Assembly (NCBI GenBank): GCA_035528375.1 | Contig: DATKYS010000022.1 | Span: 1 to 16,515, forward strand | DNA from: a bacterium | GTDB lineage: Bacteria > RBG-13-66-14 | Direction: 5' to 3' | DNA: 16,515 nt | Shown here: positions 3,690-14,927 of the stretch, one piece after another | Numbering within the stretch: position 1 is the first letter of the stretch | How the letters are laid out: each line of letters starts with the position of its first letter | Position numbers and translations under genes: made by a program | Notes under the pieces: model-generated | Seen by the model: only the letters and a program-made list of their open reading frames with translations | Database searches by the model: none | What the model was told of the DNA's origin: nothing

Positions 3690-3700
3690 ACGATAAAAAC

Positions 3701-3739
3701 GCAGGACGGCTCCGCAGGACGAGTCCTCCGCGGGCCGCC
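3701..3739. repeat. Palindromic repeat with AGGAC-GA-GTCCT core
   Basis: The core AGGAC (3716-3720), GA, GTCCT (3723-3727) is a perfect inverted repeat flanked by GGCTCCGC and GCGGGCCGCC. The same core occurs at 12708-12719, and a variant with paired base changes at 3943-3954. Confidence 0.7.
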
Positions 3740-3753
3740 ATGTATTGCGATGA

Positions 3754-3788
3754 CGTAGGGCGGGGATTCCTATCCCCGCCGCTTTTTT
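3754..3788 (+). repeat. Palindromic repeat with terminator-like T tail
   Basis: Starts CGTAGGGCGG. The arms GGCGGGGAT (3759-3767) and ATCCCCGCC (3772-3780) form a nine-base-pair stem with a four-base loop, followed by GCTTTTTT. It has the form of a plus-strand rho-independent terminator, but no plus-strand gene precedes it, so it is listed as a repeat. Confidence 0.65.
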
Positions 3789-3797
3789 ATAAGGTAG

Positions 3798-3880
3798 CCC
3801 TCACCCTTAATCCTTCTCCCATTGGGAGAGGGAGACCATCGCACCCCCCACCCTAACCCTCCCCCCAGAGGGGAGAGGGG
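3798..3880. repeat. Two CCCT-rich / GGGAGAGGG repeat units
   Basis: Unit 1 (3798-3833) begins CCCTCACCCTTAAT and ends in a TCTCCC-ATT-GGGAGA hairpin plus GGG. Unit 2 (3844-3880) begins CCCCCCACCCTAACCCT and ends in GAGGGGAGAGGGG. Both have an ACCCTNAYCCT left part and a CTCCC...GGGAGAGGG right part. Motifs of this general form are dispersed in intergenic regions of many unrelated bacteria. Confidence 0.7.
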
Positions 3881-3927
3881 ACATGCGGCAACCATCGCCT
3901 CAGCCCGCGACACGCATTTGCAATGAT

Positions 3928-3966
3928 GTAGGGCGGTCCCGTAGGATGAATCCTCTGCGGGCCGCC
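3928..3966. repeat. Palindromic repeat with AGGAT-GA-ATCCT core
   Basis: Begins GTAGGGCGG and ends GGGCCGCC. The core AGGAT (3943-3947), GA, ATCCT (3950-3954) differs from the other copies (AGGAC/GTCCT) by a matched pair of substitutions that keeps the stem. Its left flank TTGCAATGATGTAGGGCGG resembles the left flank of the 3754 unit (TTGCGATGACGTAGGGCGG). Confidence 0.7.
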
Positions 3967-3981
3967 GTTGTAATAATGAGA

Positions 3982-4167
3982 TCAGGGCTGTTGGCGCTTG
4001 AAACGCCGCACCAGCCAGCGGATTGCGGAGTAGACGAGCAGCCCCCCGGCGACGATGAGAACGGTGGTCAGTAACTCCGACCCCTCGCAGGAGGCGGCTC
4101 AGGTGCTCCCCTGGGCCAGGGCCGTTCCCGCGGACGACGCCAGCGCCAGCAATGCCGTAAATTTCAC
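3982..4167 (-). CDS. Small signal-peptide/one-helix membrane protein with in-frame TGA (possible selenoprotein or broken gene)
   Basis: From a GTG at 4167-4165 one frame runs 61 codons to a TGA at 3984-3982, broken only by a TGA at 4101-4099 (codon 23). Before it comes a signal peptide, MKFTALLALASSAGTALA, then QGST. After it come AASCEGSE, a hydrophobic helix (LLTTVLIVAGGLLVYSAIRW) and a basic tail RRFKRQQP, which predicts an outside N-terminus and an inside C-terminus. Both halves have mostly G/C-ending codons like the neighbouring genes, and together they make one coherent protein, so they probably belong to one gene. An AAGGGGG ribosome binding site lies five bases before GTG. The TGA could encode selenocysteine (a Cys codon, TGC or TGT, is one change away), be a nonsense mutation, or be a sequence error. 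The protein family is not recognised. The gene lies 126 bases after porB and may be transcribed with it. Confidence 0.45.
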
Positions 4168-4293: not shown

Positions 4294-5232
4294 CTAGGCC
4301 CCTTCGCCGCACTTCACCAGGAGCTCGTGCCAGCGCCGGTCTATCTCGGCCTGGATCTCGTCAATGATGTCCTGCCGGAGCTCCGGCTTGAACAGGTGGC
4401 GGAAGCGCCCCTGCCCCTGAAGCCAATCCACGACGGGCTTCTTCTCCTTGGGCTTGAAGTTGAGCTTCCACTCGCCGTCAACGACCTCGTACAGGGGCCA
4501 GAAGCAGGTTTCCACCGCCAGCAGGCCGGTCTGGACCGTCTCGTTGGGGGAGATTTTCCACCCCGGGATGCAGGGCGAGAGGCAGTTGATGAAGCAGGGA
4601 CCCTCGGTGTAGAAGGCGGTCCGGGCCTTTTTCATTAGATCGTTGGGCTTGGCGGGGATGGCCTGGGCCACGTAGGGCAGGCGGTGGGCGGCCAGAATCC
4701 CGGTCAGGTCCTTGTTGAACTGGGGCTTGCCGTAGGATACCTTGCCGGCGGGGGCGGTGGTGGTGCTGGCGCCGTGGGGCGTCGAGCCGGACCGCTGGTA
4801 GCCGGTGTTCATGTAGCCCTCGTTGTCGTAGCAGATGTACACCATGTTGTGCCCGCGCTCCATGGCCCCCGAAAGGCTTTGCAGGCCGATGTCGTACGTG
4901 CCGCCGTCGCCGCCGAAGGCCAGGAACTTGAAGTTGTGGGGCATCTTGCCCTTCTTCTTCAGGGCGCGGTAGGCGGTCTCGACACCGGAGCAGGTGGCGC
5001 CGGCGTTCTCGAAGGCGTTGTGGATGTAGGAGCACCGCCAGGCCGTGTAGGGGTAGATGGTCGTGGAGACCTCCATGCACCCCGTGGCCGCGGTGACGAC
5101 GACCTCGTCCTCGGCGTCCAGGCTGTGGAGGACCTGGCGCATGAGCATCGTGGCGCCGCAGCCCGCGCACATGCGGTGGCCCCCGGAGAGCCGCTGCCGC
5201 GTCGTGAGGGCTATCTCTTTGAAACTGGGCAT
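4294..5232 (-). CDS. porB: 2-oxoacid:ferredoxin oxidoreductase (pyruvate type), beta subunit
   Basis: This is the thiamine-diphosphate and [4Fe-4S] subunit of an enzyme that oxidises a 2-oxoacid with CoA to acyl-CoA, CO2 and reduced ferredoxin, or runs in reverse as a synthase. Visible features are the CAGCG cluster motif (C22, C25), C52 in the ATGCME segment, a late cysteine in the INCLSPC segment (C217 or C221), and the ThDP/metal motif GGDGGTYDIG (107-116) with YDNEGYMNTGYQRSGSTP (135-152). The last segment is close to that of known pyruvate ferredoxin oxidoreductases, so pyruvate is the best substrate guess; other 2-oxoacids cannot be excluded. At 312 residues it has the usual length. The ATG at 5232 has a GGAGGAG ribosome binding site immediately upstream. 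It is the last gene of porGD-porA-porB, 28 bases after porA. Confidence 0.94.
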   Translation of the reverse strand: MPSFKEIALTTRQRLSGGHRMCAGCGATMLMRQVLHSLDAEDEVVVTAATGCMEVSTTIYPYTAWRCSYIHNAFENAGATCSGVETAYRALKKKGKMPHNFKFLAFGGDGGTYDIGLQSLSGAMERGHNMVYICYDNEGYMNTGYQRSGSTPHGASTTTAPAGKVSYGKPQFNKDLTGILAAHRLPYVAQAIPAKPNDLMKKARTAFYTEGPCFINCLSPCIPGWKISPNETVQTGLLAVETCFWPLYEVVDGEWKLNFKPKEKKPVVDWLQGQGRFRHLFKPELRQDIIDEIQAEIDRRWHELLVKCGEGA

Positions 5233-12950: not shown

Positions 12951-14127
12951 GCTTCAGCATCCCGATGATTTCCGGGATGACCTCGTGGAGGTCGCCCACG
13001 ATGCCGAAGTCGGCGTAGTTGAAAATCGGCGCCCGCGGGTCCCGGTTGATGGCCACGACGTACTCGCTGGTTTTCATCCCGGCCAGGTGCTGGACCGATC
13101 CGGATATGCCGCAGGCGACGTAGAGCTTGGGCCGGACGGTGCGGCCGGTCTGGCCCACCTGGTGGGGATAGGGAATCCAGCCGGCGTCCACGGCGGCGCG
13201 GCTGGCCCCCACGGCGGCGCCCAGCGCCTCGGCCAGATCGTAGATGAGCCGAAAATTTTCCGGCTTGCCCACCCCGCGACCCCCGGAAACGATGATCCGC
13301 GCGTCGGCGATGTTGACCTCGGGCTCGGAGGCGATGAAGCGCTTGAGAATCGCCCTGAGCTCGGACTTGGACAGGGCCACGGCGTCCCGGACGAGCTGGC
13401 CCTCGTGACCCGGCACGGGGACGGGCGCGAAAACCTTCGGGCGGACGGTGGCCATCTGGGGGCGGTGGTTCGGGGTGATGATGGTGGCCATGATGTTGCC
13501 GCCGAAGGCCGGCCGGGTTTGGAGGAGCCGCCGGTTCTCGCGGTCTATGGAAAGCCCGGTGCAGTCGGCGGTCAGGCCGGTGTGCAGGCGGGTGGCCAGC
13601 GCCCCGGCCCAGTCGCGGCCGTTGGCCGTGGCGCCGAAGAGGATGACCTCGGGGCGGTGTCGCTCCACCACCTGGGCCGCCGCCTCGACGAATGTGTCGT
13701 TCGAGTAGCGCCCCAGGAGCGGATGCTCCGCGAGGTGTACCACGTCGGCACCGTGGGCGATGAGCTTTTTCACCAGGTGCTCGACGTCGTCGCCCAAAAG
13801 GAGGGCGGAAAGCGGCACGTCCAAATCGTCGGCCAGCTCCCGGCCCTTGCCGAGGAGCTCCAGGCTCACCGGGGCGACTTTTTTCGACTGCAGCTCCACC
13901 GCCACCCACACCCCGCGGTAATCCTCGAGGTCCACCCCGGCGGCGGCGTCGGGACGGTCGAGGATTATGGCCTCGACGGGGCAGCTCTCGACGCAGGCGC
14001 CGCAGTCGTTGCACCGCTCGTTCACCCGGACCAGCTCCTCCACCATTTCGAGGGCGCCGAAGGGGCAGACCTTCACGCACGCGGCGCAGCCGATGCAGAG
14101 CCTCTCGGAGATGCGCAGGTAGGGCAT
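12946..14127 (-). CDS. etfA: Electron-transfer flavoprotein alpha subunit with N-terminal two-cluster ferredoxin domain
   Basis: Residues 1-60 are a ferredoxin domain with two [4Fe-4S] motifs: C11, C14, C17, C21 (CIGCAACVKVCP) and C39, C42, C45, C49 (CNDCGACVESCP). Residues 70-255 are ETF domain I. Residues 270-393 are the FAD domain, with SGGRGVGKPENF (281-292), SRAAVDAGW (309-317), QVGQTGRTV, GISGSVQHLAGM (340-351), and AINRDPRAPIFNYADFGIVGD. A ferredoxin-fused EtfA is known from bifurcating complexes such as the caffeyl-CoA reductase ETF (CarE), so electron bifurcation or confurcation is a reasonable inference. The ATG at 14127 shares its A with the TGA stop of etfB and has AAGGA upstream; a longer frame from 14163 lies inside etfB and is not used. 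The stop codon lies within a palindromic repeat. Confidence 0.95.
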   Translation of the reverse strand: MPYLRISERLCIGCAACVKVCPFGALEMVEELVRVNERCNDCGACVESCPVEAIILDRPDAAAGVDLEDYRGVWVAVELQSKKVAPVSLELLGKGRELADDLDVPLSALLLGDDVEHLVKKLIAHGADVVHLAEHPLLGRYSNDTFVEAAAQVVERHRPEVILFGATANGRDWAGALATRLHTGLTADCTGLSIDRENRRLLQTRPAFGGNIMATIITPNHRPQMATVRPKVFAPVPVPGHEGQLVRDAVALSKSELRAILKRFIASEPEVNIADARIIVSGGRGVGKPENFRLIYDLAEALGAAVGASRAAVDAGWIPYPHQVGQTGRTVRPKLYVACGISGSVQHLAGMKTSEYVVAINRDPRAPIFNYADFGIVGDLHEVIPEIIGMLKR

Positions 14128-14927
14128 CAGCTTTCCTTCAGGATGCGGTTGTCCTCGAGCCACTTGACGAAGATGGCGGCGGCCTCGCGGGCCGGGGCCT
14201 CCGTCATCTCGCCCCCCGAGGACTGGGCGGAGGGGGTGAACACCCTGATTACCTGGGTGGGCGAGCCGGCCAGGCCGACCTCCTCCTCGCTCAAGCCCAG
14301 CCTGTCGGCGCTCCAGACCGGAATCTCCGCCGTTTTGGCGCGCCGGAGGCCGCGCAGACTGGGCAGCCGCGGCTCGTTGATGTCCTTCACCACGGCGACC
14401 ACGGCCGGCAGCTTGGCCTCCAGAACCTCCCGCCCGTCCTCCAGAAGCCTCTCCACCTCTATCGCCCCGTCGTCGGGCCGGCCGATGCGGTCAATGTAGG
14501 TGAGCTGGGTCCAGCCGAGGCGCCGGGAGATGCCGGGGCCGACCTGCCCCGTGTCGCCGTCAATGGCTTGCTTCCCGGCGAACACGAGGACCACCGCCGG
14601 TTCGAGCCTCTCGATGGCCCGGGCTAAAACGAAACTGGTGGCCAGGGTGTCGGCGCCGGCGAAGGCGGGATCGGACAGGAGCACCGCGTCGTCCACGCCC
14701 ATGGCGATGGCGTCCCGGAGCACCGCCTCGGCCTGGGGAGGACCCATGGTCAGGGCGGTGACCTTGCCTCCGTACGCGTCCCGGAGCTCGAGCGCCGCCT
14801 CCAGGGCGTAGAGGTCGTAGGGGTTGGTGACGCTGGGCACGCCCTCGCGGATGAGGGTGCCGCGCTTCGGGTCAATCCTGACCGTGGAGACGTCGGGGAC
14901 CTGTTTGATGCAAACGACGTAATGCAT
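14127..14927 (-). CDS. etfB: Electron-transfer flavoprotein beta subunit
   Basis: The 266-residue partner of EtfA. Visible motifs are the VCIKQVPD start (5-12), NPYDLYALEAALELRD (35-50), VTALTMGP (56-63), AMGVDDAVLLSD, FAGADTLATS (89-98), and GKQAIDGDTGQVGP (118-131), which contacts the nucleotide cofactor. NPYD-ALE and GADT-AT together with DGDTGQVGP resemble EtfB of bifurcating ETFs, where this site holds a second FAD rather than AMP; this is inference from motif likeness. The C-terminal arm (about 220-266) would wrap around EtfA. No ribosome binding site is evident before the ATG at 14927, yet the MHYVVCIKQVPD start is the expected one. It is transcribed from the promoter at 15002-15030 with a leader of about 68 bases and overlaps etfA by one base. 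No acyl-CoA dehydrogenase or other partner is encoded nearby. Confidence 0.95.
   Translation of the reverse strand: MHYVVCIKQVPDVSTVRIDPKRGTLIREGVPSVTNPYDLYALEAALELRDAYGGKVTALTMGPPQAEAVLRDAIAMGVDDAVLLSDPAFAGADTLATSFVLARAIERLEPAVVLVFAGKQAIDGDTGQVGPGISRRLGWTQLTYIDRIGRPDDGAIEVERLLEDGREVLEAKLPAVVAVVKDINEPRLPSLRGLRRAKTAEIPVWSADRLGLSEEEVGLAGSPTQVIRVFTPSAQSSGGEMTEAPAREAAAIFVKWLEDNRILKES

Follow-up and report, generated by a model that had tools for sequence, protein, structure and literature searches.

A conserved in-frame TGA in a short membrane protein gene of the bacterial lineage RBG-13-66-14 points to a probable new selenoprotein family

Organization of the locus

The window considered here is the whole of contig C22 of genome G000 (DATKYS010000022.1, 16,515 nucleotides), which belongs to an assembly of 2.63 Mb rated 100% complete. 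Its minus strand carries, at positions 3982-4167, an open reading frame (ORF) that is complete when an internal TGA is read as selenocysteine (Sec, U). The frame starts with GTG at 4167-4165, with AAGGGGG just 5' of it, passes a TGA at 4101-4099, and ends at a second TGA at 3984-3982. Translated in this way, the product has 61 residues and runs VKFTALLALASSAGTALAQGST, then U, then RWLVRRFKRQQP. As the terminating stop is also TGA, the same codon would have two readings inside this gene.

The segment before the TGA (4102-4167) resembles a signal peptide, with a candidate cleavage site after ALA, and its [V/A]LAQG[GS]T motif is kept in most relatives. The TGA itself corresponds to residue 23. 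The segment after it (3985-4098) comprises a nine-residue linker, AASCEGSEL, a single membrane helix, and a basic C-terminal tail with a net charge of +5. The parts on either side of the TGA each contain a hydrophobic stretch (best 17-residue Kyte-Doolittle means of 1.4 and 2.1), and an AlphaFold2 model with a mean pLDDT of 69.9 places a helix at residues 30-59. The order of signal peptide, TGA, helix, basic tail, and second stop, given in a preliminary description of this DNA, is thus borne out with exact coordinates.

The upstream neighbour (4294-5232, minus strand) is named from its sequence as the beta subunit of a 2-oxoacid:ferredoxin oxidoreductase. The ORF lies behind the operon of this enzyme within the genus only, and its surroundings are different in the two relatives from other genera, G004 and G006. 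Because the neighbourhood is not kept outside the genus, it tells little about function. Ahead of the start codon, G004 and G006 have in common a block of 36 nt (94% identical) with a promoter-like TATACT (GTGATATACTC), which suggests that the gene has its own promoter in these two genomes.

Downstream of the ORF, positions 3699-3967 belong to an intergenic repeat that is rich in GC (GGCGGCCCGCAGAGGATTCATCCTACGGG... type); the genome has more than 70 matches to it, some of them 85-95% identical. Elsewhere in the window, two ORFs that resemble electron-transfer-flavoprotein subunits, again named from sequence, overlap by 37 bases (14127-14163).

Homologues and conservation

According to a protein search of relatives, the ORF and the position of its TGA are shared by five genomes, which represent three genera within a single bacterial family: the genome described here, G001 and G003 of the same genus, G006 of another genus, and G004 of a third. 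The copies in G001, G003, and G006 each have exactly one in-frame TGA; those in G001 and G004 are incomplete, since each reaches a contig end. The cores around the TGA read LAQGSTUAASCEGSELL in the present genome, LAQGGTUAVPDEGSEFL in G001, PVQGSIUAVPGEGPEFL in G003, LAQGGTUGPAQLCGEDF in G004, and LAQGGTUGPSGLCGEDF in G006. In the protein alignment, the spacing between U and the helix is identical in all five, and the TGA is never replaced by TAA, TAG, or a sense codon. The preliminary description had proposed that Sec or Cys at position 23 of relatives would tell between Sec and mutation; with TGA kept in every member, the outcome favours Sec.

The locus is not visible in either of the two genomes of the same family that gave no match. 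In G002 (75% complete) the contig stops just beyond the neighbour gene, and in G005 (70% complete) the neighbour gene is missing as well. The family as it stands consists of five members, restricted to a single bacterial family and all from assembled contigs.

A profile search of 386 genomes yielded no convincing member beyond these five Sec forms. Pattern matches elsewhere in the phylum (G007, G012, G008, and a second one in G003) were set aside because of nearby upstream stops, lack of a helix after the TGA, or, in G012, masked sequence. A 621-residue frame in G006 (C79) with a weakly similar tail is an unrelated lipoprotein-like protein, and a match in G004 (C272) has neither the TGA nor the motif. 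No homologue with Cys at the Sec position was found by the profile search of the 386 genomes or by a contig scan for a Cys form. The pattern of that scan had Cys at the Sec site and was blind to TGA forms; its sole match is an unrelated Roseovarius protein with a signal peptide motif in common.

Two places in G001 (C173, 1482-1532, and C61, position 1) bear on its copy of the gene: the gene breaks off inside the helix where a contig ends, and a 3' end that matches it is present on a different contig, directly behind a copy of the repeat. Either the repeat is inserted in the gene or the assembly is broken at this point.

A cysteine after the Sec takes no constant place. It is found as UxxxC in the present genome and as UxxxxxC in G004 and G006; G003 and the partial copy of G001 have none. 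The partner Cys proposed earlier from the spacing U-AAS-C is therefore missing in two relatives and shifted in two others, and since it is not conserved, an intramolecular U-xxx-C pair is not a general mechanism of the family. The oxidoreductase motif with two residues between Cys and Sec (UxxC or CxxU) is not a conserved feature of the five members.

Selection on both sides of the TGA

Codon models were fitted separately to the two parts of the gene. Before the TGA, the best omega is about 0.3, and omega = 1 is worse by 5.5 log units (2dlnL ~11). After the TGA, the best omega is 0.3-0.4, and omega = 1 is worse by 6.3 log units (2dlnL ~12.5). For both parts jointly, omega = 1 is worse by 10.6 log units, and it is rejected for each part singly. 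On both sides of the TGA, purifying selection acts on the codons of one and the same frame. At the nucleotide level, the main conserved intergenic block between the present genome and G003 starts 12 nt before the TGA, covers the downstream half of the gene, and ends about 98 nt past the TGA; outside this block, only short matches of 10-19 nt align. The earlier view that the two halves form a single coding unit across the TGA is supported by these results, as the frame and its TGA recur in four more genomes with a dN/dS of about 0.3 on each side. The branch of the present genome is somewhat divergent: compared with G001, its gene has six nonsynonymous and no synonymous codon differences after the TGA, which may mean that selection has relaxed or changed in this species.

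Selenocysteine machinery and candidate SECIS elements

The selA, selB, selC, and selD genes, whose presence the preliminary description had made a check on Sec, are all found in the genome. The tRNA-Sec, with anticodon UCA, is confirmed by ARAGORN; SelA is encoded, as is a SelB of 647 residues. SelD has its own in-frame TGA near the N-terminus, followed by xxK, and UxxK is the motif listed for Sec-type SelD (PMC13188914). The 48 nt from the Sec TGA of selD are identical in three species of the genus and contain a GGGCC/GGCCC stem with a CCGC loop, which makes them a possible reference SECIS for the lineage. TGA terminates four of the 15 ordinary genes in the window, so the codon is not globally reassigned. 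With the TGA kept in five genomes and the Sec machinery complete, Sec holds up as the likely decoding.

Two mutually exclusive hairpins can form after the TGA of the ORF. According to published rules, a bacterial SECIS (bSECIS) has a loop of 3-9 nt, a stem of 4-16 bp, a G among the first two loop bases, a position 16-37 nt from the UGA, and an MFE of -7.5 or lower (PMC13188914). When the 42 nt after the UGA are folded, the distal hairpin (4063-4084, minus strand) fits these rules: its stem pairs 4084-4077 with 4071-4063 (eight pairs, one bulged A; -9.6 kcal/mol), and its 5-nt loop, AGUUA (4076-4072), has G at position 2 and begins 22 nt after the UGA. The window is rich in GC, however, and 76% of all its TGAs fit the same model at -7.5 kcal/mol or lower; folding z-scores are near 0, and the energy of the distal hairpin is not above chance. 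In each of the five members a hairpin could form whose loop begins 22-23 nt after the UGA and has a G among its first two bases. The G004/G006 hairpin has two one-sided changes and retains all seven pairs, and in G003 one of six pairs of the distal hairpin is broken. A joint consensus fold of the five downstream regions failed; the two clades position the hairpin one base apart.

The proximal hairpin (4077-4097) is the one noted earlier. It can indeed form (-8.3 kcal/mol), all seven pairs are kept in the three members of the genus, and in G003 it comes near the best fold. Its geometry had been taken as an argument against a standard SECIS. That argument finds no support; the distal hairpin fits the rules, even though the rules discriminate little here. 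Searches against Rfam gave chance matches only. The hairpin evidence neither proves nor disproves Sec at this site.

Comparison with known selenoproteins

No Pfam or NCBIfam model matches the ORF product above its cut-off, and the NCBIfam models for C-terminal sorting signals (CTERM type) reach only E values of 0.4-0.57. The idea of a CTERM tail carried by larger secreted proteins was also dropped, as the only well-matched larger protein, in G006, is unrelated and its tail match is weak. A 2026 review catalogues 119 prokaryotic selenoprotein families or subfamilies (PMC13188914, Table 1), none of which fits the ORF when compared by name and motif rather than sequence by sequence. The catalogue does list further selenoproteins that are small or linked to membranes, among them the mercuric transport protein PF02411, but no family name or motif in it corresponds to a protein of about 60 residues with a signal peptide, one helix, and QG[GS][TI]U.

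With bacterial selenoproteins that depend on a bSECIS, such as FdhA, the SelD of the same genome, and others, the ORF would share UGA decoding by SelA, SelB, SelC, and SelD and, if one of its candidate elements is used, a hairpin 16-37 nt after the UGA with an early loop G (rules of PMC13188914). It differs from them in that its product has no redox fold, no conserved UxxC or CxxU, and no Cys homologue, and is far smaller and membrane-embedded.

Among eukaryotes, SELENOK and SELENOS are single-pass membrane proteins whose only Sec sits in a short, flexible tail close to the membrane. They are longer than the ORF product, rely on a eukaryotic SECIS, and have their Sec on the cytosolic side, close to the C-terminus, whereas the Sec of the ORF product would lie on the outer face, close to the N-terminus of the mature protein. 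No description of a small bacterial membrane selenoprotein was found in the literature.

Alternative explanations

A recent nonsense mutation or a sequencing error in the gene of an ordinary small membrane protein, the plain alternatives of the preliminary description, could not be ruled out from one genome by itself. The wholly nonsynonymous changes after the TGA relative to G001 and the 3' gene fragment adjoining a repeat in G001 would suit such a pseudogene. It is contradicted by five genomes, assembled separately and drawn from three genera, in which the TGA is identical and the frame downstream of it is intact and under purifying selection. Because the frame is selected on both sides, and because the block conserved between the present genome and G003 spans the TGA, a pseudogene or an error is treated as excluded for practical purposes. 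Scarcely more probable is an arrangement of two genes, in which a free exported peptide stops at the TGA and a membrane peptide encoded after it begins at a rare start such as CTG. In-frame CTG codons do follow the TGA in the present genome and in G006; however, no member has an in-frame ATG, GTG, or TTG in the linker between TGA and helix, the main conserved block crosses the TGA and the linker without gaps within the genus, and the distance from Sec to helix is equal in all five.

Among the rivals, a leaky or regulated stop fares best, and it too is improbable. The gene would yield mostly a 22-residue exported peptide, with some readthrough by a near-cognate tRNA (e.g., for Trp) and no Sec, and the cell would make use of the two products alike. 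A readthrough product would likewise conserve both halves, the SECIS signal is not above chance, and no Cys homologue anchors the site. Against it stand the full Sec system with a Sec-type SelD in the genome and a codon that is neither TAA, TAG, nor sense in any of the five members. An alternative code, in which TGA means another amino acid throughout the organism, would account for an in-frame TGA in an expressed-looking gene, but its probability is close to nil: four of 15 genes in the window and the ORF itself end in TGA, and the genome has a Sec tRNA with a UCA anticodon.

Proposed function and significance

The ORF is most readily understood as a selenoprotein gene whose product is a micro-selenoprotein that spans the inner membrane once and exposes Sec on the outer face, a reading to which we assign a probability of roughly 0.83, Sec insertion being deduced. 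It probably represents a new selenoprotein family of unusual architecture and unusually small size. In the proposed mechanism, SelB and the Sec-tRNA(UCA) would decode the UGA at 4101-4099 as selenocysteine, assisted by a stem-loop within about 40 nt of mRNA after the UGA. The N-terminal signal peptide, either cleaved or retained as a signal anchor, would export the short QG[GS][TI]U segment. The single transmembrane helix and its RWLVRR-type basic tail would anchor the product in the inner membrane with the tail on the cytoplasmic side. From the positive-inside rule together with the signal peptide we infer an outer-face position for Sec, at a distance of about nine residues from the membrane and close to the start of the mature chain.

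In that position, Sec would most likely act as an exposed selenol or selenolate alongside a membrane partner. It could be a redox site of a single residue, for which an external thiol or another copy of the protein does the resolving, or it could be a metal ligand. Most economically, the selenol would stand alone, serve a membrane partner, and react with a thiol from outside, with a second copy of the protein, or with a metal. More broadly, and with somewhat more confidence than doubt, it is proposed that there are lineage-restricted micro-selenoproteins of about 40 mature residues with one helix, in which Sec, the sole conserved chalcogen, is presented outside the membrane and which have no Cys ancestor. 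If this is true, the use of Sec here would not be derived by replacement of a known catalytic Cys. Catalogues of bacterial selenoproteins lean on redox folds and Cys homologues, and a membrane protein of about 60 residues with neither would be missed or called intergenic. If the family is real, bacteria put selenocysteine into membrane micro-proteins, and the gene would offer a small, testable system for the need for selenium at the cell surface of this lineage.
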